A DNA stretch of 32,103 nucleotides from Saccoglossus kowalevskii (Eukaryota > Hemichordata > Enteropneusta > Harrimaniidae), in the NCBI RefSeq assembly GCF_000003605.2, contig NW_003154244.1, forward strand, positions 61,292 through 93,394. The letters are read 5' to 3'. Position 1 is the first letter of the stretch. Every line of letters begins with the position of its first letter. Positions 4,029-31,944 of the stretch are shown here, in pieces. The translations under genes were made by a program, and so were the position numbers. The notes under the pieces were generated by a model. That model did no database searches. It was not told the origin of the DNA and saw only the letters and a list, made by a program, of their open reading frames with translations.

Positions 4029-4122
4029 TTATTGAGAATTTCTGGAGAACTACTTATTTAATTTTAAATAACTGATCAAATCTCAATTAACTTTAACGTT
4101 AATGAATTATATATTCGTTATA

Positions 4123-4134
4123 TTTTTTATCAGA
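4123..4134 (+). promoter_or_regulatory. Probable 3' splice site of a 5'-UTR intron, UNC93-like gene 1
   Basis: A T-rich tract ending in TTTTTTATCAG lies 13 bases before the start codon. The paralogue has the same arrangement, with TACTTTCAG ending at 11118, 16 bases before its ATG. Conservation of position suggests that both genes have an untranslated upstream exon that I cannot locate. An in-frame TAA at 4139-4141 closes the frame just before the ATG. Confidence 0.5.
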
Positions 4135-4147
4135 TACTAAATTTACG

Positions 4148-6087
4148 ATGGATTTGAAGAACGAACATTTAAATACGGGAATCATCTACAAACCGTCTCG
4201 AGAAGATGGAAATGAAGAGGAAATTATCGATGAAAAAACAGAAATGTTGGACATTAAGAATCAGTCTGTTTATGTTGGTAGGCAAATTTGCACAGAGGAA
4301 ATGCAGACAGATAAAGAGAAAAAGAAAGAAAAAACGAAAATTGTAAAAAATATGCTTGTACTGTGTACAGTTTTTACATTCTTGTTTACAGCGTTCAACG
4401 GTCTAGTCAATCTACAAAGCAGTATAAACTGTGACGATGGTTTAGGATTTGCGTCTTTAGCCTGTATGTATGCCTTTATGATTGTATCTGCTGTATTACT
4501 ACCTTCCATTGCAATCAATACATTTGGTACAAAATGGACATTAGTGATCAGTATGGTATTCTATGTAATTTACACTGCTGCCAACTACTACCCTATGTGG
4601 TACATTCTTATGACAGCTTCAGCTTTCCTTGGAATTGCAGCTGCTCCTCTGTGGACGTGCCAGGCTATGTATATCACCACCATCAGTATCCAGTACGCCA
4701 ATATCAATGATGAAGACTGGCAAAATACAGTAAATCGCAATGTTGGCATATTTTCGATGACTTTAAAGAGTAGCCAAATATTTGGAAATATACTTTCTTC
4801 AGTAGTTCTTGGACTTTCTGATGATCGTAACACTACTTCGTTTAACGATGTAACATATACGTGTGGGGCTAATGACTGCCAGGAAACTGAAGGTAACCAG
4901 ACAACATTTTGTGACTTACCTCCACAGAATTTAACAACTATTTTACTAACTCTGTATGTGGCATGTGGTGTTATAGCTATTATTATTACAGTTATATTTC
5001 TCGACAAACTGAAAGTAGGACAAGAACCAAAGGAACAGAAACAGTCATGTGATCTATTATTGGCCACTATCAAACTTTTGAAAGATGATAGAATATGGTT
5101 CGTCATTCCAATGTCGGTGTGTAGTGGTATAGAAATGGCCGTTATTACAGGAGTCTTTGTGAAAGTGAGTGAAGTCTAATACTTACAATACTACATTATT
5201 ATTGTGTACATTGTTAACACATGCGAATTGGTCCAGCTGTTTAGCTTCTCAACACAAAAAATGTTACATTATTATTTTTTACAGTCTTATGTATCATGCG
5301 TCATTGGAGTCAATATGGTTGGTTATGTTATGATATGTTACGGTGTTAGTAACACTGTTTTCTGTGTCATCGCTGGACGTGTGGCGACATACATAGGCCG
5401 CGTGACCTTGGTTGCCATAGGTGGAGCAATGTTAGTATCACTCTCTATATCCTTGTTGCTTTGGGAGCCACGTGCAGAGCAGATGCCAGTCTACTTTATT
5501 ATTGCTGCTGGGTGGGGACTGGCTGATGCTATATGGCAGACACAGATGTATAGTGAGTTAAAATGAATTCGTAATTGTAATATTTATAGTTACTTAGTTA
5601 CAGAATATATAAGGTGAATCATGACATTCAAACAATTTTCTGAGTATGCATTTCTCTGACGTCACATCCGTCACCAGATTTGAAAACAACTGATTGTGGC
5701 AACAAACAATTATTATACTGTGGTCATTGCTATTTATCATCAGTAAGTTAGAATATAATATTATGGGATATCCATGTTAGCACAACTATAACCAACTCAC
5801 ACACTGATCATCAATCAAAATATCATAGTGGTTTCTTTTCTATCCTTGCAGCTATATATGGTGTGTTATTCCCTGATAATCAGGAAGCAAGTTACTCTAA
5901 CTGTAAACTATGGGAATCTATAGGATTTGCAGTTTCCTTTGCATATAGCATATTTATATGCGTCTATATCAACCTGCTGATCCTTATAGGAATGCTAATA
6001 CTAGCTGTAATTTGTTATTTTGTCGTGGAATACAACATATGGAAAAACAGTAACAACATTAGGAAATATAGCTGCAAGCAGCAGTGA
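4148..6087 (+). CDS. UNC93A: UNC93-like multipass membrane protein, gene 1 (3 exons)
   Basis: The coding exons are 4148-5164, 5285-5552 and 5852-6087, with introns of 120 and 299 bp, phases 0 and 1, and GTGAGT at both donors. The joined frame is 506 aa; vertebrate UNC93A proteins are around 460. Residues 1-65 are hydrophilic and end in a Lys-rich stretch. The first membrane segment follows (about 69-87), then the family motif NLQSSIN (88-94), FGTKWTLV (126-133) and further hydrophobic helices to the C terminus. A loop at 225-263 has three N-glycosylation sequons (N228, N250, N261) and Cys239, Cys244 and Cys255. UNC93 proteins resemble the major facilitator superfamily; known members act as an ion-channel subunit (worm unc-93) or a Toll-receptor chaperone (UNC93B1). 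The cargo or partner here is unknown. The last six residues appear to come from a repeat. Family call firm; exact orthology is not. Confidence 0.88.
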
Positions 6088-11118: not shown

Positions 11119-11134
11119 TAATTGAGTAATAGTT

Positions 11135-13261
11135 ATGGATTCGAAGAGTACACAGACGTTAACAAGTGATGATAATGCACTGAATAAAGATTGTGCTGAC
11201 ACGATGATTAATCCAGTAGATGTCAGTGAAATTGGTGTCAATGACAAGATGGACTTTGATTACAGTAAAGATGAAACTGTTGATACCTGGCTGGAATCTA
11301 CAGAAAGGGAATCCGGTTGGGAGAAATGTAAAAGAAGTCTTTTTAAAAACATACTTTCATTGAGCCTTGGATTTCTTTTTCTATTCACTGCATTTCAAGC
11401 TTTGTCTAATCTTCAAAGCAGTATAAATTGTGATGATAGTCTGGGATTTGCATCATTATCATGTATCTATGCATCTCTGATTGTGTCATCATCGTTCCTT
11501 CCTCCGATTATCATACGTCATCTGGGTACAAAATGGACTCTGGTTATCTGCATGATTTGCTATGTGCTATATACTTGTGCAAATTATTATCCAGAGTGGT
11601 ATACACTTATACCAGCTTCAGTGCTCTTGGGATTTGCGGCAGCACCCCTATGGACGTCTAAGGCTACGTATTTAACTACAACCAGTTCCCAATATGCAGA
11701 ATTAAGCCACGAGAGTTCAGAAATCGTCATCAATCGCAACTTTGGTGTATTTTTCATGTTTTTTCAAAGCAGTCAAATATGGGGTAACCTCATGTCATCC
11801 GTGGTGCTGGGATTAGCTGATGATAGCAACTCTACTGAAGAAACTGGGACATACACATGTGGTGCCGACGATTGCCAAAAAAATAACGGGAATGACACAA
11901 CTTTCTGCAATCCACCAGCACGCAATGTGACTAATTTACTAATAACCATGTACCTAGTATGTGGTATCATCGCTATTATTATTATCATCGTATTACTCGA
12001 CAAACTGAATGGTGATCAGGAAAAGAAGACCCACCAGAAACCATCGTGTAATCTTTTCTTAGTCACATTGAAACTTCTCAAAGATTACCGAATGGAATTA
12101 ATGATACCTCTAACAATCTACAGTGGTCTTGAACAGGCTTTCATCGCTGGTGACTTTACTAAGGTATTTCTATTAAAGAATTGCTAACGGTTTGTGACGT
12201 CTTTCGTGTATAACAGATTGTTACCCTTGCAACGAACAACAGTGATTTATCACTCGTGACTAAAATTTCAGATAATATGTCATTACTGAGTACACTGAAT
12301 ACAAACAGTATATTGTGTACTTTGTTCGAATGTTGGCACAAACCCGACTAACTTATTTATATTTTTATTTTTACCAGTCATATGTGTCATGTGTTATCGG
12401 TGTTGAAATGGTCGGATACATCATGATATGCTATGGTGTCAGCGATACGTTATTCTCTTTTATCGCCGGATACGTTGCAAAATATATCGGTCGGGTGATA
12501 CTGATTGCTGTGGGTACTTTGATTCACTTGGTTCTCATAGTATCGTTGTTACTATGGGAACCCCGAGATGATGATGGAGCTATATATTTCACCATAGCAA
12601 TAGGATGGGGTATGGCTGATGCAATATGGCAAACACAGATTAATAGTAAGCCTGCTTTACCCATCTTTGTTATATTCGTAATTATAACTTGAATGCCTCC
12701 ATGCAACGCCATTGTGTAGAAAACGCTTGGTAATTCAAATTGTGTGTTCTGCTTGAGGCTTAACATACATGGTAATTTAATTTGACGAACAGCAGTGTGT
12801 AATGGTGCAGTGTCTCTGCACATATTGCGTTCCTGGTATTTATTGAGGCAACAATCGTGAAAATTTCTAATTTCTATAATGTTATATATAACTGACAATA
12901 CTAAGTAATCAATCATGTTTTAGATTATGACACTGTATTCGATAGATACAATGGAATTAAGACATGCACATGAGAATTCTTGTTACCATTCTTATTTATA
13001 TATTTATATTTACAATTATTTGTTCCTATTTCAGCAATTTATGGGATATTATTCAGCGATGACAAAGAAGCAGCCTTCTCCAACTACAGACTATGGGAGT
13101 CAGTTGGATTCACTGTATCTTTCGCATACAGTATCTTTATCTGTGTATACATCAAGTTATATATTCTGATAGGCGTCCTCATAGTTGGTGTTTTCTGTTA
13201 TTTTATAGTCGAGTACAAGCGATGGAAAAATGACAATCAAGGGTATCCCGTTGACACCTAG
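11135..13261 (+). CDS. UNC93A: UNC93-like multipass membrane protein, gene 2 (3 exons)
   Basis: The coding exons are 11135-12163, 12378-12645 and 13035-13261, with introns of 214 and 389 bp. Intron positions and phases match gene 1 exactly, and the middle exon is 268 nt in both. The product is 507 aa. The N-terminal ~65 residues are acidic and unlike gene 1, whereas the membrane core is highly similar: NLQSSINCDDSLGF (92-105), LGTKWTLV (130-137) and QSSQIWGNLMSSVVLGL (211-227). The extracellular-type loop keeps three sequons (N232, N253, N264) and Cys242, Cys247 and Cys258. Conserved architecture and adjacency point to tandem duplication. The C terminus (ending YPVDT) lacks the repeat-derived tail of gene 1. 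Role is inferred from the family only; a small-molecule or ion-channel-linked function is possible. Confidence 0.88.
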
Positions 13262-14592: not shown

Positions 14593-16203
14593 CCATTTTC
14601 TACATATGTGAAATGTCAATCGATTGTCCACGTATGTGTCATCACGTGACCTATTACAATACACCTCTATGCACCCTAACTACCATGTAGAACTGATAGC
14701 CGTAGAGTCACAGCTGCAACAGAAACAATAACACCAAAATACACAAACTAGTGCAATCTATTCAACTAAAAAAACATTCTTCAATGCTGTGGTTGGGAAG
14801 TGATTTAAAACTCGAAAAAACAAACATAAAAACGATCATTTTTGCCACGATTTTCGCTTCGGTGAATGTTTATTAAACAGGTGGATCGATGATGATATTT
14901 TCGATTGTGTGATAAGAGAAAATACTATTAGAGAGTTTTTATTTGCGATATATCTTTGCGTGGCACGTTAGTGGACGCAAGTCTATGGAAGAACCCACAG
15001 CTCTTCTGTGTCGATAGAAGAATTATCAACAACTTTTCCAGACTTTTCTAGCCCCAGTAAAACCCCCAGGGTTCTCTTGCACTTTTACATGTTCACATGG
15101 GCCACGGCTTGTGTTTTACAATGATTTGACGAAATAATCTAAGTTTAAAATATACCATGCATTTATGGAATTAGCATTCCTCAATTTCATAGCACGCCTT
15201 TCATCTTCTCTTGTATGAATTGCAGCGTTCAGAGTAAATTCGGAAAATATTGCGTATTACTAGTATATCATTTCTATGGGCCATGTGGCATTACCATTGG
15301 TACATGCGCACATGCTTCAATTTTGTTGATAGGGTCGTCTACCTCATTGCTAAAACAAATCTCAAAAGTTTGATCTCTAAAACCGTTTCGAGCTGGAGAC
15401 GTTTTTCTTAAAATTTAAAAACAATGTCAAGCATTATAATACAATGAACAAACAAAATCACTCACTGCCAAGTCACCGAGCTACAAACATGGAGCCCGTG
15501 CTGCACCCCAGGACTTACTGAATCAACCAACACCGTTCTGTACACGTGCAGTAGTGGGGGGGGGGGGGCATGTTAACAGATATTCTACATTTAAAAAAAA
15601 TATTTGCATTATAGCGTTCGTATTTGAAATAATAGCAAAAAATAAAATAAGGCAGAGCATCATGTGTATTCTCTAGTTAACTGTCCACGAACTCCAAAAT
15701 GGCAAATGTTTGAGACACTTTAAAATCTCCTTACATCGACCCTTCAACATAAATCTACAATTTATAACACACACAGTGCAAAATATATTCCTTCTTTCAC
15801 AATGCATTTGGGTTTATTTGAAGGCTATATTTTAGATTTCCGTCACTGTTGTTTATGTTTGGGGACAGGTAGAGAGTAAATAATTTCTTATTTTGTTTTT
15901 TGAGAAACTTGCTGTTAAATGTCACTTTTTCGGCTGTTTTATATCCATGAACATATCACGTTGCCCATACGTGTATACAACATGATTTTGGGGGGAAATT
16001 CGGGGAATTGTGCACTGATCGAAGGTTCAGTAGTGAATGACTTGCGTGTCTGTTTGTTTATGGTATCATAATGCTGGACACTCAAGTTGCCTTTAATTTG
16101 CGTACTTCCATGTACATGTACCAATGTACATGCATTGAATAAACACAAACGAATTCCAAAGTTGACCACCGAGGGCGCTCACACCGAGTACAGCGGTTTC
16201 AAA

Positions 16204-19200
16204 ATGGCGAACCTGACGTCTCCCGTGCAACTTACAGACCGTATGGTCGAGCTAACATCATATCGCGACCAACATTTCAAGGTTTGTAGTTATTCTGTTT
16301 GTTTTTTTCAATAGCAAAACAAACATATTGGGTGAAATGAGTCAGTCTCGATCGACAACCTCCACAACACAGCATTGCAATGGTAGTGATGCTTTGTTCA
16401 CCACCCACTTGCTTTGTTTTAACGTGGAACAAACTACCATGGTTTATCCGTAGACCCTAGAAAGTCTATGGTTTTATATGCGTGGTTATAGTATAGGTTT
16501 TTCGTATGTCGTACATAGGTACACACGTTTGCGTCGTTATACACTTAGAGGAAACCTGCTAGTAGTAGTAACAGTAACATTGTAAATTCCAGAAGTTTCG
16601 CATAGTTTGGGTTTTTATTTTCATTTCATTTGTACTATGAATCAGAATTACATAACGTAATATGAATTTGACTTTTTAGCACCATGTGCCAGTTACACTT
16701 TTGAGAATACTAAACACGAACAATCATGGGTTGTCTCTGAAAGTTTGCAAGTGACCCAAGGAACCAACACAGTATCACAACTGTGGATTACATGTATTAC
16801 ATCAGTCACGGTAACGGCGTAAGTTACAGCGTGCCGTAATTTTGCAGTATTTTACGTGGTATTTTCATTCTACCATATGAGGAAATGCAAATTCCAAATA
16901 TGTAATGATTACTTGCATAAGCATCCTCTAATAATAAAACAAACATGGCTGCCACCTGGGTTTGACCCACACAAAGAAGTTTGTTGATTCTGCTCTAAAC
17001 TTCTTGGATTTCGCATTCCCATGATGTATTCTTGGAAGGAAAAGTTGTATAATAATAATGTTATTACGAGGATACCTCAAAGTATGCACTCAGACAGTAC
17101 ACTGTTGCTGTACGTCGGTCGATACTCCTGCTGTACTGTCTTCATGCATACTTTTAGATATCCTCAAAATAACCTCAAATTATTATTTTCAGTAGAACTA
17201 TTGATACTCTTTGGTAGGGGTTGCTGTACATTGCATGTTGAAGTTACCTTGCATAATTGAATTGAATACCAACAATACAATTATTATTTCAATAATTACT
17301 TGTTGTTGTTCTTCCAGATTTGTTTCAACTAGTTTATATGTTATTGTTTTTACAGGGTACTTTGACAGAACAGGAATATCGCTTATCAACTAGTAGCACT
17401 TTATATTTAGGAAACTTATCATTCTACACAACAGAAGAACAAATTCATGAACTATTTTCTAAATGTGGTGATTTAAAACGAATAATTATGGGTCTGGATA
17501 AAGTTAAGAAGACTCCATGTGGGTTTTGTTTTGTTGAGTATCCTTTTAATGTAATAGTGGAAGACCTCCCATCTTCTATTACAGTTTTTTGAAACCAACT
17601 ATTCACAATATTTATTGTTTCAGTGATTTAATCATTATTGGTACAAATGTACTTAGAAACCATTGTCGTGAAAGTACTTTAGCAGGATGAGACTAGATTT
17701 TCTCTGTCTTTCCCCTCCTATATTTCAGTTTTGTCTAGAATAATTTACATTCAAACTTTACACATGCAAATACTCAATGGTACATAATACATTTTTTACC
17801 TTTAGCTCTGATTGACTGTCAGTCAGCCAGTAAAAATGCTCCAAATTGTAATGCAACATTTCACATTTGCATATCATTTCTTAATTACATAAACATACCT
17901 AGAGATTGAACAAACAACTCTGGATTATCACTTTGCATTTGCATAAGCCCATGATTGACAGTCATTTTGAAAAGTCAAACCCATGTTTGAATCATGTCAA
18001 TAATATGGAAATTGTATTATGGATATATTCATGGTTGTGTGCGACATGAAAATAATGTACCATAACACCCCTGAAGTGATGTTTCAAGCTTGAGTGTCAT
18101 TTGTGTACTGAAAACTGGTGGCCATCTTTCCTTTTATACACCCAGAGCCGTGGTTTAATACTTTCACTGAAGGTCAACTCAAATGTAACAATGGAAAATT
18201 TTAGATTTTATGTTTTTCTTATTTTACTATTACTGCTGATAATCCTGCAAATGTATAATGGTAACATCTTTGCTGGTTTGAACCCTTCTTACATCAACAA
18301 TTGTAGACAATAGTTGCCAACCCATGTTGTAAGTAAAAGAATAAGTAAGATCTGTATTTAATTTTTGCATTTCGATGTTGCATTCATATTATTGTTTAAA
18401 TGAAATATGCAAAAAATCAACTTCAAAATTGCCTACAAAATCATTCCTAAAGCTTTGTTGGGATATTTGGGCTATTACTTGTTTTTGAAATATTATGGTA
18501 TGCATATGTACAAATTGATTTGAGATGTAACTTTTTAAATGCATTAGCGAATGAAATTCAAATGTACAATCAAATGAGACCAAAAAGATAAACGTGCTGA
18601 AAAATGTTCGACAATTGAACAGCTACCGGTAGTACATATTTTCAACAAATAAACACTAATTCAGATGTTTCACATAATTGCCAAAAGACCTCAGTGAAAT
18701 TCAGAAATGATTTCAGAGATTACAGATTTAAAATTTGTTGGAAAACAGCAAAAATGTATTTTATGATGAACCTAATATGCATGTGAAAACAATCAATGAA
18801 TTAGGTGAAAATGAGCCTCAACTATTATGATAGATATTACACACGAAATGATGCTGAAAACTCCATGAGATATGTGAATGGTTCCAGATTAGATGACAGA
18901 ATTGTGAGAACTGATTGGGATGCTGGTTTCATAGAAGGTAGACAGTATGGTAGAGGCAAAAGTGGTGGACAGGTATGTATAAGCCTCTGAATGAGAGCTT
19001 ATTTTCTATGCATTCCCATTTACATACATATTACTGATATTTAGTACAAAGTTGCACTGTAGTGGGATACATTTGCGTGTAAAAAAAAAAATTGAGACGC
19101 TATTCAAAATGGTTGACCTTTTTTAGTTACTGTACGGGTGAAGTCCAAAACGAGGACTTGTTTTATAGTCCCAGTGTGTTTGTGTGTCCGGAACTATATC

Positions 19201-20373
19201 TCAGACATACTTAATCACTTTCAATCTTGCACATACTTTTGTTTCGATACATGTGCTCATGCGATGATTTTGTCAAAGATGGCCAACTTGTGGCAATTTT
19301 GGTTTTAAAAATACTCTTAAACCAGGTATTTTTGACATGCCCAGAAACAGATTTCTGTCTGATCATCTTCAGATGTATTTACCATTATAGGTAGTTAATG
19401 CACATCACTTTGAATTGGACTCAAGATTGGTGACTGGTGGGCATTTTGTATTTGACATTAAATTTCAGACATACAATGTACATATATATCCTGTACATGC
19501 TTTGAATAATTGACTTCAAACTTGATACAAAGATAGTACATCATGGCATACTTGCATGCATACAACCAGTTTGTCATCTGACAAAAATGGCAGGCTGCTG
19601 ACCAAACACTAAAATCAGGTATAATGACATGTTCAGAACCAGATCTCAGGCCTGTTTTTGTTTTTTATATAGTTTTAATATCTATAGTTTGAAGTGATTT
19701 CTACCATTAATTCTACTGTTATCTCTTTGATTTGATTATTTTGTATTTGAAATACAATTTGTGATTTTATACCTAAATTTTGTACTGTTATTGTAAATTG
19801 TACCGTTATGTTATGTCAAGTTTTTTGTGACTGAGTCCATGTTACTGAAAATGAAAACAAAAACAAAATATGGGGGTCACCAGTCAAACTAAAGGAATTA
19901 TGGGAGTCCAACAAATTTTTGCCAGCCTTCTGTAGTTTTTGCATTGGTTTCTATGTAATATGTTTTTCATCATCTACGTGTAAAACAAATTGGGTTGGTG
20001 TTATAGACTGAAAAGGTTTTACCGTATATTGTCATTGACATGGTGCAAATTATTTTTGCAGTTTTTTTAACATTGACTACTCAATGGAGACTGCTCTGCA
20101 AAATGCTGTTTGTGGAATAGTCTGATTTATTTATGTATTTTTTGGTTTCTCAAGACAATTATTTCTCTTCTCACCCTATCTCATCTTTGTCTCAGTTTGT
20201 GCTCACAATGACCGGTAATTTTAACTTTTAGATTCTTATAATGTTTACAGGTTCGTGATGAGTATAGGACAGATTACGACAGTGGACGTGGAGGATATGG
20301 TAAAGCAGCTCTCAGACAACAACATACACCACAAGATATTATCACTGCCTGGGGGTACGGAAATAAGCCTTGA
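16204..20373 (+). CDS. NCBP2: Nuclear cap-binding protein subunit 2 (CBP20), 4 exons
   Basis: The exons are 16204-16281, 17356-17537, 18834-18972 and 20251-20373, joining to 173 aa; human CBP20 is 156. The protein binds the m7G cap of nascent Pol II transcripts with NCBP1, in the nucleus. One RRM domain is present: RNP2 LYLGNL (42-47) and RNP1 CGFCFVEY (81-88). Family cap-pocket residues fall at the human positions: Tyr20 and Tyr43 (cap-stacking), Phe83 and Phe85, Arg112, Asp114, Trp115, Asp116, Arg123, Arg127, Gln133 and Arg135. The intron after exon 2 splits a Glu codon (GA|A); this choice restores [15 protein letters not shown], the conserved family sequence. ATG 16204 is chosen over in-frame 16087 because the human N terminus aligns from it without a gap. 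The last ~20 residues, after GRGGYGK, differ from and exceed the human tail. Confidence 0.95.
16282..17355 (+). other. NCBP2 intron 1, with dispersed palindromic repeat
   Basis: The intron starts GTTTGT and ends TTTTTACAG. It includes copy 1 of the dispersed element (16801-17165). Apart from that nothing coding is visible. Confidence 0.8.
16801..17165 (+). repeat. Dispersed element with terminal foldback, copy 1
   Basis: This is the fullest of three copies; the others are 24362-24716 (inverted) and 25131-25405 (interrupted). Shared blocks include GTAAGTTACAG, CCGTAATTTTGC, CTACCATAT, ATTCCAAATATG, CTCTAATAATA, AAAGAAGTTTG and TTATTACGAGGATA. It ends in a hairpin: 17068-17101 pairs with 17132-17165 at 29 of 34 positions around a 30-base loop. 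No protein is encoded. Confidence 0.75.
17538..18833 (+). other. NCBP2 intron 2
   Basis: The donor is GTATCC and the acceptor ATTATGATAG, with a weak polypyrimidine tract. The boundaries are fixed by protein similarity and phase. No other feature is recognised inside. Confidence 0.8.
18973..20250 (+). other. NCBP2 intron 3, with a diverged internal duplication
   Basis: The donor is GTATGT and the acceptor AATGTTTACAG. Two related segments, about 19190-19400 and 19460-19650, share phrases such as TCAGACATAC, ACATGTTCAGAA/ACATGCCCAGAA and AACCAG/AACCAGGTAT. This is an old duplication or two copies of one repeat. Confidence 0.5.
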
Positions 20374-23287: not shown

Positions 23288-26200
23288 ATGTTGAGAGTCG
23301 TAAGGATGAGTGCAGAAAGTGCACTCCGGCGAGTTCGTCAGTTGAATGGAGTTATTACGAGCAACACCTCGGCTCAACTACGGTCACAAAGTACAGGTCA
23401 GTGGATCTCTGAGTGGGGTTGTAACAACAATGTTGTGAATAGAAAAACGCCGGTCGCTTTGCTTAATTTTATAAGTCTACGACAATATTGTATTGTTCTA
23501 CGCATTAATCTGTTGTCTTTATCCAATTGGTTCATGGCGTAGAAAGATATTATTTACACCCATTCGACGTACGTACAACTATACTCTTCCAAATTTAGCC
23601 CTGAACGAGCATGTTAGGAGTGTGGATGATATTTACATACGGCTGCCACACAGACGCCATCATTGATCCTCTTGTGGATAAAAATGCGAGTATGCAGCAA
23701 ATTGATGCACCCTGTTTTTAGATCAAATTATCAAAACACATATTATTGTATAAAATCTAAAACTTCTAGGTTGATCTATATCTAGTAAATAATATAAATT
23801 AAAAATTTCATGAAGACAGGAGCTTGCTTTTAAGCATGTATGAAAAATACTCCGGTAAATTATCAGGCTTTATTCAGATCGAATGAAGACTCTTCCATTG
23901 GCAATAGAAACTATTTGGTAACACACAAGAGTCTTTCCTTAAAGCGAGGGAGTCGTCACCTGCGACATGTTGGCTTCACACTCAAACACTATTCTAATAC
24001 ATGTATAGCAATATAGGATGACAGCATAAGATTGAATGCACACATTATACATACATGCACCAAAAATTAATTAATTTAACTGATAACAAACTCAAGATTT
24101 CACGAATATAGTCTACTGTAGTTATAAACAACAATATGTATGTATTTCTTTGGTGTACTAATTCACAAATGCACCATTATACAGTGTTTCTTGCGTGTCA
24201 CCATCACTGAAAATGATGCCAGTGTGTAATTTCCCCCCAAACTTTTCTGTTTTGCAATATTTTATCAATTCTTTTTGACAAAACACTGCTTTGCTAAGCT
24301 TTTGTTCTATAATTCTTGATGCAAACATTTACCCTAGTATTAATATGAGGTAAGTAAAAAATATACCTCAAAGTATACACAAAGACAGTATAGCGGGGAG
24401 TATCAACCGATGTGCAGAGGTTGATGCGACGGTGTACTGTCCGAGTGCATATCCTCGTAATAACCTTATTATTATACATCTTGATAATGTCAAAATCCAA
24501 AATGCTTAGAACAGAATCACCAAACTTCTTTGTGTGGAGTCTGGTCAAACCATAATGGCAGCCATATCTCTTTTATATTATTAGAGGATGTTTATGTGCG
24601 TAATCATGCCATATTTGGAATTCGCATTTCCCAATATGGTAAAATGAAAATACCCCATAAATTACCACAAAATTACAGCATGTTGTAACTTACATTGTAT
24701 GACGTGAGTGACAGATTTATAATAATTAGTAATATCACCTAGTATGATCATCATTGCAAATTTAATGTGAGAAAAATGACAAATGTCCATTTGAAATTCA
24801 GGCCTAGGGCTGGCATAGCACTTAAATATTAGCAACAGAATTCTTTTTTTCAAACGAGCCATAGATGTGATGACATAGTGATCCCTTCCCTACCACTGAG
24901 AATGCCACAATATTTCGTCCTAATTGCATTTGTCTTTAGCAATAGGACACAAAATCATTGATAAGAGCTTTGACAAGCTCTTGTTTTACATATCTCAATG
25001 CAAATATTGGCCCTTGTGATAATTAGTTCTGAAAGCCTGCATGTAGTGGGGAGTGGGGGTGAGTTCCAACAAGAAATATAAATCTCATGTTTAATACATA
25101 TCGTCCTGTTCATAACCAGTATTATTATACATCTGTCACCGTAACATTGTAAGTTACAGTATGTCGTAATTTTGCGTATTTTACGGGGTATTTTCAGTCT
25201 ACCATATTAGGAAATGTGCATTCCAAATGTATAACAATTGCGTGTGTAAGCATCTTCTAATAATAAATAACTATTAAAAATAGCTATTTTTTAGCTATTT
25301 TTAATAGTTATTTAGGACTACGATTACCAAATATTATCTTCTATATATCATATTTATCAGTCCGAGCAGCGTTTATTTATTTATTTATAAACTTCTAATA
25401 ATAAAAACAGGCACCAGACCGTATACAGTTCACTCAATCTGTTCTAATTAAATTAAATTTAATTAAACTTTTGTCCAGCAAGAGTCTTGTGTGGGCAATA
25501 CCAAAGACCAGTGGCATGTGATAGTACTGTAAACCAAACATTCTGGTGAAAACAATTCATGTATATACCCATAATGCACTGCAAACCAAACATTCTGGTG
25601 AAAACAATTCATGCATATACCCATAATGCACTGCAAACCAAACATTCTGGTGAAAACAATTCATGCATATACTCATAATGCACTGCAAACCAAACATTCT
25701 TATAACAATTCATGTTTATACCCATAATGCACTGCAAACCAAACATTCTGGTGAAAACAATTCATGTATATACCCATAATGCACTGCAAAACAAACATTC
25801 TTATAACAATTCATGTTTATACCCATAATGCACTGCAAACCAAACATTCTGGTGAAAACAATGCATATACCCATAATGCACTGCAAACAAATCTTTCTGG
25901 TAAAAACAATGCATATACCCATAATGCGCTGCAAACCAAACATTCTAGTGAAAACAATTCATGCATATACCCATAATGCACTGCAAACCAAACATTCTAG
26001 TGAAAACAATTCATGCATATACCCATAATGCACTGCAAACCAAACATTCTAGTGAAAACAATTCATGCATATATCTATAATGCACTGCAAACCAAACATT
26101 CTGGTGATAACCATTCATGCTTATACCCATAATGCACTGCAAACCAAACATTGTGGTGAAAACAATTCATACATTTACCCACAATGCACTGCAAACAAAA

Positions 26201-29200
26201 CTTTCTGGTGAAAACAATTCATGTTTATACCCATAATGCACTGCAAAACAAACATTCTTATAACAATTCATGTTTATACCCATAATGCACTGCAAACCAA
26301 ACATTCTGGTGAAAACAATTCATGCATATACCCATGATGCACTGCAAACCAAACATTCTGGTGAAAACAATTCATGTATATACCCATAATGCACTGCAAA
26401 CCAAACATTCTGGTGAAAACAATTCATGCATATATCTATAATGCACTGCAAACGAAACATTCTGGTACAAACAATTCATGCATATACCCACAATGCACTG
26501 CAAACAAAACATTCTGGTGCAAACAATTCATGCGTATACCCACAATGCACTGCACACGAAACATTCTAATGATAACCATTCATGTTTATACCCATAATGC
26601 ACTGTTAAACAAACATTCTAATGATAACCATTTATGTTTTTACCCATAATGCACTTCACAACAAACATTTCAATGATAACCATTCATGTTTATACCCATA
26701 ATGCACTGTAAACTAAACATTTTGGTGATAACAGCCAAACATCCTGTTAGGGACCCAATATCATCAGTATTCATTGCTGTTTTCCAGCGTGACATTTTGT
26801 TTTTTGTCCACACAGACAACAGCCATGTAAGTATCGGAGATGTCAGTATACAATTACAAACACCAAAGAAACCTGAATTGGTGCCAACAAAATATAGTAA
26901 GTATATATAGGATGGATTATACAGTGTTCAGGGATCTGCCCACGCTGGTCGGCGCCGGTCGCTAGCAACCGCCACTCAGAATTTCCGACCAGGACAAAAA
27001 GTTGGCGATCAGGACTATTCTATTTGTTTACCGGTATTATACACACAGGATGTCGGCCACTGGACCATCATTCTATTGTCCTTGCTGGTTTTAACACACA
27101 GCACAATGCAAAAAATTAACACACAACAAAACTTGAAATAAAATACCGCTGTTCAAAATCAACGTACACGTGTGACATCGGCCTATTGTGTTTTTGTTTT
27201 AACCTCCGATTGACATTCTGTATCCATATCGGAATAAGTCGTACATCAAGATAATGGAAGTGGAGACAATGATAAATAAACAGAAGGAAGGATTACCATT
27301 GCAAGTTTACATGTAGTTGTGTGTAGGATTTGCCGAGTTAAACAATAACTTGCTCACTTCACCGGCAGCAATGCGTCAAGCTGTCGTTCGTTTAATCTGC
27401 ACTTGCACTCAAGTGTAGTAACCGTCATTGATGTTTTTGGCTCGTTCATAAAATTAAATTCATAAGCTATATTCAGTCAGCGATACAAGGAATACTAATT
27501 TCTCACTATTAATGTGATTTACCAGCGTTCCATCGGAAAAGAAAACAATTATTAATTTCTTGTTGCCACTTTGGCCATTACAAACAGACGACATGCTTTG
27601 AAAAAAAAATGGCTGCCAGGTCAGAGGTCAATGTCTCAAAATACGTATTTTAGACGTGATTTAAAAAATATTTAGTGTATATATTTTTTCACTTTTATTA
27701 AAGCAGATTAATTTTACATTGAAATATTTAAAATAAATAAAAGTTAAAATAATTAAAGTAGTTAAATCGTAGCTAGTAGAATAGAAAATGAATATTAATT
27801 AGCTCATGAATATTAATGAGCTCATGAATATTAATTAGCGACCAGCACTCAAATCAAGCTGGGCAGAACCCTGAGTGTTATAATATCAACAAGCTTGTTA
27901 CTTTGGTCCTGTTTTATGTCAGTTTCAGTGGTAGACTGTCGACAGTCGGTCGTACCTATTATTAATTTGTTATTATTAATAAATAGTGTGTATAAACGTA
28001 ATAGGCGTGAATAAATAAGTATGGAGTGCCGTTAGGCACAACCGACTGTCCGGTGCTGCAATTCACTGGTAAGATTTCTTACCAGATCCGGGTACTTTCA
28101 TATGCAAATGGAGATGTCTATCATTTTATCGTGAAAAGGGTCACAGGTCGCTAGGTACTAGGATCGCCGACGACTTACGTTTGTTTTGACAGTACTATAC
28201 GCGATCGCGACACTTTCCACAGCAGTTTTTGATATCATGACACAAACAAATCAAATGCATTATAAAAGGGCTGGAACGTTTAGACTTCCATGATATTTCT
28301 TGCACAGGGGGGAGAGATGTGTTCGTCAACGTGCCGTGTTGACATTCGTCTTGTCAAAAAGAACTCATTTCGAAACCAGGGATCACCCACTTTCAGTTGC
28401 AATTCTCTTAGAGGAAAATGCCTGCGACCTTTCCAATAACTCTTCTAGTTTGTTGAAATTTCTTCCTGAACTCATCCATGTTTTTATGCAGAGTCAACGC
28501 TCTCAGTCCACAATATCACATATAATAAAACTTAGTGCATGTGCATCCTGGAACAATACACAGATCTAAATCTATGCATAATATTTGCTTAATTGGCATA
28601 ATAATTTATTTGGGTCATTGAGGTAATCCACAGACATAATTAGTTTAATGTTGATAAACATGCATATTGATTATCTAATATTAGCCCATTTCTGATATTT
28701 AAAAAAATCAGATTTAAATAGAATTCATCACAGAGGTGCTCTGGAACTAATTAGACTAAAAACCATGGATGAAAATCAAATGTATTTTCTGTATGTATTA
28801 TAAATTTTGATAATGTGAATTACATTGTTTTCAGACAAATATTAGTTGCCAGGTTTCTAATTTGGAAGGCCAATCGTAATTTTTAAATTACTTTTAATTT
28901 TAGTTCTTTCTAAGCTTTCTTTGATTTTTGCATGAATCCAGACATTTTCATGCCAAATATAATGTATTCTACAAGGAATACATGGCATGGCTGTGTTTTG
29001 CCTTTAGTTACTATAGCAACAATAATCTGTGATTCTAACAATGTCATTTATTTTCTCATTCAGTTCCTGACACTCCTCCACAAACTCTGATGAGGCATCT
29101 AAGATGGATCATGCAAAAGGTACAATCTCCTGCATGCTAACATGCACAACAATATTAGGTACAATCTCCTGCATGCTAACATGCACAACAATATTAGGTA

Positions 29201-31944
29201 CAATCTCCTGCATGCTAACATGCACAACAATATTAGGTACAATCTCCTGTATACTAACATGTACAACAATATTAACTACAATCTCCTGCATGCTAACATG
29301 CACAACAATATTAGGTACAATCTCCTGCATGCTAACATGTACAACAATATTAGGTACAATCTCCTGCATGCTAACATGTGCAACAATATTAGGTACATTC
29401 TCCTGCATGCTAACATGCACAACAATATTAGGTACAATCTCCTGCATGCTAACATGCACAACAATATTAGGTACAATCTCCTGCATGCTAACATGTACAA
29501 CAATATTAGGTACATTCTCCTGCATGCTAACATGTGCAACAGTATTAGGTACATTCTCCTGCATGCTAACATGTGCAACAGTATTAGCTACAATCTCCTG
29601 CATGCTAACATGAACAACAATATTAGGTACAATCTCCTGCATGCTAACATGTACAACAATATTTGGTACAATCTCTTGCATACTAACATGTACAACAATA
29701 TTAGGTACCGGTACAATCTCCTGCATGCTAACTTGTACAACAATATTAGGTACAATCTCCTGCATGCTAATATGTACAACAATATTAGGTACAATCTCCT
29801 GCATACTAACATGTACAACAATATTTGGTACAATCTCTTGCATACTAACATGTACAACAATATTTGGTACAATCTCTTGCATACTAACATGTACAACAAT
29901 ATTAGGTACAATCTCCTGCATGCTAACATGCACAACAATATTAGGTACAATCTCCTGCATGCTAACATGTACAACAATATTAGGTACAATCTCCTGCATA
30001 CTAACATGTACAACAGTATTAGCTACAATCTCCTGCATGCTAACATGTACAACAATATTAGGTACAATCTCCTGCATGCTAACATGTACAACAATATTAG
30101 GTATAATCTCCTGCATGCTAACATGTACAACAATATTAGCTACAATCTCCTGCATGCTAACATGTACAACAATATTAGGTACAATCTCCTGCATGCTAAC
30201 ATGTACAACAATATTAGGTACAATCTCCTGCATGCTAACATGTACATCAATATTTGGTACAATCTCCTGCATACTAATGTGTACAACAATATTACTGGGG
30301 TAGCTACAATCTCCTGCATGCTAACATGTACAACAATATTAGCTACAATCTCTTACATACTACCATATAACATGTACAACAGTATTTTTCTACAATGCTG
30401 TCTCATACTGTGTATTTGTTTTTTCTAGGATTTGTTGGGTCAAGATGTGTTTCTCATTGGTCCTCCAGGTCCCTTTAGAAGGGAAATAGTTATGCAGTAT
30501 GCTGTGAGTATATTTATCATTTGAATGTGATGTAAATAAGTATTCACTTCCATTCTACTTCCATTACAAAATATGATGTATCATTGTTAGCTTAATGTTG
30601 GTATTTCCATAGCCTTCAGTGTGCTTATGAACAAACATTATTCCATGGTTCAATTTTTTTATATTCCTGTAGTACAGGATAAATATTTATGCCTTGTTTC
30701 CATCAATGATGATACACTCTTCTTAACTCTTACAGGAACTAACCAAGCGTGAAGTAGAATATATTGCTTTAACAAGAGATACAACAGAAACCGATTTGAA
30801 ACAAAGAAGAGAAATTCTATCATCAACTGCTTACTACATAGACCAGGTAACGTTTATTTATATATTTATCATTCATTGAATATTTTGTTTTTATCACAGC
30901 AATAAAATATCATCTTCACATTACAGGCATAATCTAAAACTGTTGATGTGTTACATTTTTTAGTCTAAAATTTGAACTTATTGATTAACAATGTCAAAAC
31001 TTATTATCAAAGTATGTATGAAAGGATTAATTTCACAATTAAAATACTAGTAGTATAGTCTAATGTTGTTATTTTTATTATATATTTTTTTACATAATAC
31101 ATTACAAATGTTTCAAATTTTTTAACTTTGAAATGTAATATTTTCTTTAATCAGATTTAAATTAAATTTATCACAGAGGTACTCTGGAATTAGTTAGACT
31201 AAAAACCATGGATGAAAAATCAAATGTATTTTCTCTATGTATTATAAATTTTGATAATGTGAATCACATTGTTTTCATGTTGTGCATCTCAAATAGCAGA
31301 CAAATATTAGTTGCCAAGATTCTCGTTTGAAAAGCAAATCTTTAAATTTTGAGTTAATTTCAGGAGTTTAGCGATAGTTTTGAAAAAAAAATATACCGGT
31401 AGTCAATGATTCATTGCTTCATGTTAATACATGTTAAAGAGTCGATGTGAGACAGTCAGTGTTTTGAAATCTTTTTTTTTCAAATTTTCAAATCATCACA
31501 GTATTTAACACCCATTTGCCCTGTTAATTACTGAAATACAAAAAGCTCATGCAGCTCAGCTCAAGATGTCAATTCATGACTTCGTGATTTATTCGACTGG
31601 TAAGAGAGACATGTAACAGTGATATTCATCGTCCTCATACAACTTTTAAAAATATATTTATTCTTCTGTCAATTGTACATGCATTAGTAGTTGAAATAAG
31701 GTAGTAAATATCCTAGGCTTGTGATATTGAGGTTTATTTTCTTTTAATATGAGTACTTTTACTGCTTTGTTTCCAGTGTGCTGTGAGGGCAGCCACCAAT
31801 GGCCACATTCTTGTCATTGATGGCATAGAGAAAACAGAGAGAAATGTATTACCTGTCATTAATAATTTATTAGAGAACCGAGAAATGCAATTAGAGGATG
31901 GTAGATTCCTTATGGCCGCCGATAGATATGATAAGTTATTACAA
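23288..31944 (+). CDS. VWA8: VWA8, mitochondrial AAA+ / VWA-domain protein, N-terminal part (exons 1-6)
   Basis: The exons are 23288-23396, 26816-26896, 29064-29119, 30429-30503, 30736-30846 and 31777-31944, giving 200 aa; the gene continues past the window. Phases are 1, 1, 0, 0, 0, 0 and every intron is GT-AG. Residues 1-36 are rich in Arg, Ser and Ala with one acidic residue, fitting a mitochondrial targeting peptide. Conserved family segments follow: TPKKPELVP (52-60), HLRWIMQKDLLGQDVFLIGP (75-94), REVEYIAL (112-119), DTTETDLKQRREI (122-134), and NNLLENREMQLEDGRF (174-189). VWA8 is a large mitochondrial ATPase with AAA+ modules and a C-terminal VWA domain. The first P-loop reads GPPGPFRR (93-100) and lacks the Lys-Ser/Thr of a canonical Walker A; from memory the human protein is similarly degenerate. 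A Walker B-like ILVIDG is at 155-160. Introns 1 and 3 carry minisatellites. Confidence 0.93.
24362..24716 (-). repeat. Dispersed element with terminal foldback, copy 2 (inverted)
   Basis: Read on the minus strand, this matches 16801-17165 across its length, including GTAAGTTACA, TTCCAAATATGG, CATCCTCTAATAATA, AAAGAAGTTTG and GTTATTACGAGGATA. Its foldback arms are preserved but more diverged (GGACAGTACACC against TATACTGTCTTTG). Confidence 0.7.
25131..25405 (+). repeat. Dispersed element, copy 3, interrupted by an insert
   Basis: Positions 25131-25267 match the first part of copy 1 (GTAAGTTACAG, GTCGTAATTTTGC, GGGGTATTTTCA, CATTCCAAATG). The match stops at CTTCTAATAATAAA, and this 14-mer recurs at 25392-25405 after a 124-bp insert. 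Confidence 0.65.
25264..25314. repeat. Perfect 23-bp hairpin with 5-base loop
   Basis: The arm TAAATAACTATTAAAAATAG (plus CTA) at 25264-25286 is the exact complement of 25292-25314 around TTTTT. It lies at the left edge of the 124-bp insert in copy 3. A transcript would fold into a stable stem, but the AT-rich arms make DNA cruciform formation or a MITE remnant equally likely. No small RNA is claimed. Confidence 0.85.
25531..26745. repeat. 52-bp minisatellite array, about 23 units, VWA8 intron 1
   Basis: The unit is typified by AACCAAACATTCTGGTGAAA, ACAATTCATGCATATACCCA and TAATGCACTGCA in order. Spacing is 52 bp between most units, while a few are shortened (for example where TTATAACAATT replaces TGGTGAAAACAATT). 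Divergence rises toward the right end, where CTAATGATAACCATT variants dominate. The array ends about 70 bp before exon 2. Reading frames across it are repetitive and carry no recognisable domain. Confidence 0.95.
26929..27873. mobile_element. TIR element with CAGGG/CCCTG ends, hAT-like, 945 bp
   Basis: The left end is CAGGGATCTGCCCA and the complement of the right end is CAGGGTTCTGCCCA. A second shared block, GGTCGCTA, lies further in on both sides. The flanks share AGTGTT (26923-26928 and 27874-27879), a 6-bp duplication rather than the 8 bp usual for hAT. No transposase is recognised. Near the right end, an 18-bp unit beginning GAATATTAATTAGCTCAT repeats three times (27790-27840). The superfamily is uncertain. 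Confidence 0.6.
28705..28885. repeat. Intronic repeat pair, copy 1 (VWA8 intron 2)
   Basis: This stretch is a direct copy of 31152-31345. Shared blocks include AATCAGATTTAAAT, ATCACAGAGGT, GACTAAAAACCATGGATGAA, ATGTATTATAAATTTTGATA and GACAAATATTAGTTGCCA. No protein is encoded. Confidence 0.8.
29120..30380 (+). repeat. 39-bp minisatellite, 30 units plus two degenerate, VWA8 intron 3
   Basis: The unit reads, in order, GTACAATCTCCTGCATG, CTAACATGTACAACAA, TATTAG. Thirty unit starts are at 29120, then every 39 bases, with one 45-base unit (29705, containing an extra GTACCG). The regular array ends at about 30295; two degenerate units follow from 30304. Twenty-six units begin GT and four begin CT (29276, 29588, 30023, 30140). 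Because 39 is divisible by three and the unit has no stop in several frames, long open frames of 13-residue repeats appear on both strands; these are by-products. Confidence 0.97.
29120..30428 (+). other. VWA8 intron 3, almost entirely minisatellite
   Basis: The donor GTACAA is the first base of repeat unit 1, and the acceptor is TTGTTTTTTCTAG. Only the last ~50 bases are free of repeat similarity and supply a normal polypyrimidine tract. Confidence 0.9.
30847..31776 (+). other. VWA8 intron 5
   Basis: The donor is GTAACG and the acceptor TTTGTTTCCAG. It contains the second copy of the repeat pair (31152-31345) and otherwise AT-rich sequence with no recognised feature. Confidence 0.8.
31152..31345. 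repeat. Intronic repeat pair, copy 2 (VWA8 intron 5)
   Basis: This is the partner of 28705-28885. It carries an extra segment (ATGTTGTGCATCTCAAATAG) just before GACAAATATTAG. Confidence 0.8.

Follow-up and report, generated by a model that had tools for sequence, protein, structure and literature searches.

A 39-bp minisatellite starting at the splice donor fills most of VWA8 intron 3 in the hemichordate Saccoglossus kowalevskii

Introduction

A minisatellite that begins at a splice donor and repeats that donor in its units raises the question of whether the spliceosome makes use of the copies, or whether the repeat simply grew at this place. Intron 3 of a gene of Saccoglossus kowalevskii presents such a case. 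A preliminary description of the locus saw each unit of a 39-bp array as a miniature intron, with GT at its start, CTAAC inside and AG at its end, and offered three readings: a stepwise splicing ladder, a U1 snRNP sink or decoy, and functionless replication slippage seeded at the donor. We analysed the array within the window, by which we mean a stretch of 32,103 nucleotides (RefSeq assembly GCF_000003605.2, contig NW_003154244.1, positions 61,292 to 93,394 of the forward strand), at whose right end the contig stops. Coordinates below are those of the window, and a slash marks a splice junction or its repeated copy.

Results

We take the gene to be VWA8, a name that comes from the preliminary description and from the human protein. 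The joined translation of exons 2-6 matched Pfam AAA_5 (E = 2.5e-32). A search for the remainder of VWA8, with a human stretch as the query, gave no match and carries no weight. Exon 3 ends with ...ATG CAA AAG/GTACAA and exon 4 starts, after TTTTTTCTAG, with GAT TTG TTG GGT, so that the joined frames read ...RWIMQK/DLLGQDVFLIGPPG... (Table 1). Skipping of exon 3 would shift the reading frame; exon 4 is in frame and encodes the GPPGP of the first AAA domain. Elsewhere, the window contains two UNC-93 family genes in tandem (4106-6087 and 11126-13261) and an NCBP2 gene (nuclear cap-binding protein subunit 2; 16072-20373), one exon of which matches solved NCBP2 chains (E = 9e-25).

Table 1. Features of the VWA8 exon 3 to exon 4 region in window coordinates
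Feature	Position	Strand	Evidence
VWA8 exon 3 (56 nt)	29064..29119	+	reading frame runs on from exon 2 and into exon 4; acceptor TTTTCTCATTCAG
Native 5' splice site AAG/GTACAA, weak	29117..29125	+	2.95 bits; without G at +5
39-bp minisatellite, 32 units (last partial)	29118..30369	+	TRF and wrap-around alignment
VWA8 intron 3, 1309 nt	29120..30428	+	frames of exons 3 and 4 join
Decayed array continuation	30370..30409	+	one-stretch alignment to unit; 0/1000 shuffles as good
T-rich tract at the intron 3 acceptor, ...TTTTTTCTAG	30410..30428	+	12/16 pyrimidines
VWA8 exon 4 (75 nt), in phase 0 on either side, coding for DLLGQDVFLIGPPGPFRREIVMQYA	30429..30503	+	frame; AAA_5 match begins inside

TRF reported a period of 39 with 31.7 copies at 29118-30366, and wrap-around alignment extended the array by three bases, with small insertions enlarging two of the units. 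The consensus unit, read from the donor, is GTACAATCTCCTGCATGCTAACATGTACAACAATATTAG. The array proper is undoubtedly beyond chance and occupies 1250 of the 1309 nt of intron 3 (95.5%). Both methods bear out the earlier observation that it begins at the donor of intron 3, while the number of about 26 units given there was too low. The first unit begins at the 5' splice site (29120), and the tandem repeat spans the exon-intron boundary, with the AG of exon 3 and the GT of intron 3 both lying within the unit register; this AG is the only part of exon 3 in the unit. Taken as one stretch, the 59 nt after the array are unit-like until about 30409, but positions 30391-30414 alone showed no significant similarity to the unit (24% of shuffles as good). 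The three units nearest to the donor are identical and the right end is decayed in the wrap-around alignment; the two halves of the array diverge alike (means of 2.43 and 2.19 differences).

CTAAC occurs 29 times in the array, TACTAAC six times, both as previously described, and TGCATG 24 times. The distance from the GT to the branch A of CTAAC is 20 nt, and that from the branch A to the AG is 18 nt. There are 21 internal AGGT sites, 16 of which are exact TTAGGTACAA junctions, fewer than the approximately 26 recursive TTAG/GTACAA junctions first proposed; the remaining unit junctions read AGCT or TTGGT, or are interrupted by small indels. Since the register starts at the AG/GT donor and shares its AG with the exon, GT...AG follows at every intact junction, and this look of each unit is no independent evidence. 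Of 20,000 stretches of 39 bases drawn at random elsewhere in the window, 60% contained the loose branch motif YTNAY, 1.9% CTAAC, 2.0% TGCATG and 0.3% TACTAAC.

All 30 matches to the unit with two or fewer mismatches in the readable 572-Mb genome lie inside the array. Elsewhere we found 14 matches, each with three mismatches, versus 37 for a reversed control pattern. We therefore rejected the unit as a dispersed satellite or a transposon-borne repeat, its near-exact copies being at one locus of the readable genome. Exons 3-5 are flanked by two copies (28695-28884 and 31138-31349) of a dispersed repeat roughly 190 bp long, which has at least 41 genome matches from 278 candidates, 40 of them scored. 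The idea that the array edge is part of this repeat was likewise rejected, because the repeat is a separate dispersed family.

How surprising is the position of the array edge? In the sampled genome DNA, nine arrays of at least ten copies were counted over 97,883 readable bases. Two of these lie within the window, and the sample is small and clustered (9 of 18 stretches were all N, and the three arrays from other contigs share one contig). Taking about 90 such arrays per Mb, a poorly known density, and assuming 150,000-200,000 introns for the 572 Mb, one would expect chance alone to place the start of some tens of arrays within 2 nt of a donor; this is a rough expectation and not a test. Of the 11 sampled arrays with at least three copies, only that of VWA8 intron 3 has AGGT at a sense-compatible edge. 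The fit between the array edge and the donor is real but not extreme, because the array fills the intron and leaves little room for its left edge elsewhere.

The other large minisatellite of the window (25526-26733, 52 bp x 23.6) lies in VWA8 intron 1, ends some 80 nt upstream of the exon-2 acceptor and abuts no splice site. Further long minisatellites were met in other sampled stretches (L015 6194-9354, L010 3044-4186 and L019 4397-9940), with arrays of 34 bp x 92.6, 21 bp x 53.8, 35 bp x 18.1, and 59 bp x 14.4 and 11.8, which suggests a minisatellite-rich genome. Another stretch (L020 1-10000) holds tandem arrays with a period near 261 bp; judged by eye, their unit resembles a tRNA gene region.

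We then considered what the unit was made from. The seed could have been a duplication across the exon-3/intron-3 junction, of the type seen in lancelet genes, with the exonic half of the unit since decayed. The exon end GCATCTAAGATGGATCATGCAAAAG/GT can indeed be aligned in line with the unit end GCATGCTAACATGCACAACAATATTAG/GT. This alignment was not significant, however: 7-8% of shuffles of the exon end and 23% of shuffles of the whole exon did as well, of the window's 2941 other AG ends, 253-308 were as good under two scorings, and a stricter scoring aligned nothing past the AG. A junction-spanning seed is thus an unlikely origin.

The changes in each alignment column were counted over 28 units, leaving out units 15, 30, 31 and 32, which are partial or contain indels. 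The four AG/GT columns had nine changes (mean column 0.97), and random column sets were as variable or more in 10.7% of cases (P = 0.107); CTAAC had one change (P = 0.23) and TGCATG six (P = 0.62), all of these P values being loose because the units are related by descent. The column changes across the 28 units gave no sign of selection on the internal splice motifs.

This result bears on a reading in which the array would act as a copy-number splicing enhancer, that is, as a putative cluster of RBFOX sites or of weak U1 sites securing the inclusion of exon 3. The 24 TGCATG copies in the array compare with 19 on the plus strand of the other 30.9 kb; they lie at 29131-30320, one per consensus unit, the first at intron position 12 beside the weak donor of a small exon, which could not be skipped in frame. 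Clustered (U)GCAUG motifs are described as controlling mammalian exons. However, TGCATG is present by chance in 2% of 39-mers, the array has multiplied a single event into its 24 copies, and there are many other protein motifs that might have been picked post hoc. The motif was kept no better than other columns and sits in the stem of a predicted hairpin, and the mammalian work found four to six motifs to be enough, with bigger clusters adding nothing. On this balance, an enhancer role appears quite improbable.

The internal donors and acceptors were examined for their usability. Under a generic scoring matrix, the native donor (2.95 bits) is the lowest of the 12 confidently read donors in the window, and 13.7% of 3792 background GTs score at least as high. 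A 13th, uncertain donor, GA/GTATCC of NCBP2 at 17537, lies below it at -2.83 bits. The commonest internal copy, TAG/GTACAA, which is the donor that a U1 sink would offer, is weak and reaches 1.49 bits, a value that 22% of background GTs equal or exceed. Five internal sites outscore the native donor, namely three TAG/GTACAT (3.12), one TAG/GTACCG (3.43) and one GTAGCT (4.56), and these count against a simple strength-based preference for the first donor. On the acceptor side, the 16 positions before the 21 internal AGs contain 5-7 pyrimidines, compared with 10-13 at eight real acceptors, in agreement with the earlier remark that the internal 3' sites have no polypyrimidine tract. A recursive splice site has such a tract before its AG, and none was found at the 21 internal sites. 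Read-through from exon 3 in frame 0 gives ...MQK VQSPAC-stop, the TAA lying in unit 1, and frame 0 meets 57 stops through intron 3. The 39 bp of a unit equal 13 codons.

The proposed ladder would have exon 3 advance along the internal AG/GTACAA sites by 39n nt at a time, each joining regenerating the donor AAAAG/GTACAA, as far as the real acceptor. The 21 internal AG/GT sites, the 29 CTAAC motifs and the 18 nt between branch A and AG are consistent with this proposal, as is the fact that joining onto a GTACAA copy restores the letters of the native donor. The 39-nt unit is smaller than an ordinary animal intron, and by such size limits single-unit steps would be too short. Neither the missing pyrimidine tracts nor the lack of conservation of the AG/GT columns fits the proposal.

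Two published systems come close to it. Dual-specific splice sites, in which AGGT is usable as both a 5' and a 3' site, occur as a tandem array in human UBC (PMC10809524). As in UBC, the AGGT sites of VWA8 stand in tandem, one per repeat unit, and the unit length is a multiple of three; the UBC units are coding and their sites are used, whereas the VWA8 sites are intronic and weak. Drosophila ratchet points juxtapose a 3' and a 5' site around an AG/GT junction inside an intron (PMC8906543). The VWA8 array has intronic AG/GT junctions too, but it lacks the pyrimidine tract and is spaced at 39 nt, and its intron measures 1.3 kb, while published accounts of recursive splicing concern long introns. 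Published minisatellites at exon boundaries reportedly leave splicing undisturbed, or show the use of a single-unit donor and exon skipping. Sequence and precedent thus speak against the recursive ladder, which we hold to be very improbable. A working ladder in the full sense, with the minisatellite setting the number of catalytic steps, allele length tuning the speed of splicing and in-frame stops policing failures, seems barely credible.

Discussion

Intron 3 of VWA8 was probably once a short intron that grew by neutral slippage and is spliced mainly in a single step. This reading is supported by the array itself with its register and its filling of the intron, by its restriction to a single locus, by the unconserved AG/GT columns, by internal AGs devoid of a tract, by the weaker internal donors and by the TAA met on read-through. 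The minisatellite-rich DNA that we sampled and the precedents of human ABCA7 and the lancelet genes also argue for it. Functionless replication slippage accordingly fits best among the options that had been put forward for the locus. On the other side, the neutral model explains only post hoc why the edge of the array coincides exactly with the donor. Growth may also have been polarised to the donor end, because the first three units are identical and the right end is decayed, and plain slippage does not require such polarity.

The course of events may be pictured as follows. A 39-bp tract at the donor of intron 3 would have been duplicated in tandem, and slippage or unequal exchange would then have raised it to the approximately 32 copies now present. 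Without all copies but one, the intron would measure about 100 nt, by arithmetic from the lengths. The position of the array is presumably bounded by exon 3 to its left and by the acceptor tract to its right, because growth into either would be harmful. The hairpin TGCATG-CTAA-CATGCA in unit 1 could promote slippage, and as DNA it is more stable than shuffled sequences (z = -2.9 and -3.1). No such excess was seen with the consensus unit (z = -0.9 and -0.4 as DNA, -1.2 as RNA), and we rejected hairpin-driven expansion, since the excess holds for the sequence of unit 1 and not for the consensus.

Splicing most likely proceeds in one step from the first donor at 29119 to 30429. The later donor copies are probably used rarely, because their context is weaker and they lie at a greater distance from the exon. 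Use of a later donor would add 39n nt and keep the frame, and the TAA of CTAAC would then stand in the first retained unit, so that the transcript would be truncated or decayed. A likelier visible side effect would be length-dependent in-frame skipping of exon 4, after the precedent of ABCA7. Such skipping would delete the GPPGP stretch of the AAA domain.

The preliminary description knew of no described class of donor-seeded minisatellite, but there are precedents, which we compare here. The VNTR in intron 18 of human ABCA7, with 23.7 copies of a 25-bp unit in the reference, lies directly next to exon 18 and opens with that exon's canonical donor GT (PMC5954066). The donor of unit 2 is sometimes used, with retention of one unit, and skipping of exon 19, which is in frame and lies within a nucleotide-binding domain, climbs with VNTR length (PMC5954066). 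The VWA8 array resembles this VNTR in adjoining an exon, in beginning with the GT of the upstream exon's donor and in carrying donor copies in its units. The ABCA7 unit is C-rich, and its 25 bp shift the frame when a single unit is retained, in contrast to the VWA8 unit, which has 39 bp, is AT-rich and contains an in-frame stop as well as CTAAC and AG. The ABCA7 VNTR is moreover polymorphic and tested at the RNA level, whereas we know the VWA8 array from one assembly.

In lancelets, the "mirages" of Adh3, globin, TnC and PGBD5 are minisatellite-like duplicated exon-intron boundaries with AG/GT; the Adh3 units measure 10-72 bp, and some PGBD5 repeats abut 5' splice sites (PMC3087553, PMC3902484). 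They are reported not to interfere with the regular splicing of Adh3 and globin transcripts. The VWA8 array is likewise a tandem repeat at an exon-intron boundary, many of its units having AG/GT, but mirage units are described as boundary-spanning, whereas the VWA8 unit holds only the exonic AG. A search for the GFP family, as a mark of a cephalochordate host, gave no match in this genome or in any control genome and is therefore uninformative.

The repeat unit of human IFI6 (6-16) is reportedly 12 nt long. Its minisatellite is cited as providing several splice donors (Turri 1995). The IFI6 units serve as donors, and those of VWA8 likewise carry donor copies. In Caenorhabditis elegans, the minisatellite CeRep25B has been described as over-represented near regions of alternative splicing.

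The array in VWA8 intron 3 is a further example of a donor-containing minisatellite, of the kind already known in human ABCA7 and lancelet genes. With it, VWA8 joins the small number of genes in which a minisatellite is known to contain an exon's own donor; here nearly the whole intron is filled, the length of the unit is a multiple of three, and the units include a stop. Loci of this sort offer a natural test of the spliceosome's choice between many copies of one weak donor, and ABCA7 leads to the prediction that in-frame skipping of VWA8 exon 4 would rise with allele length.
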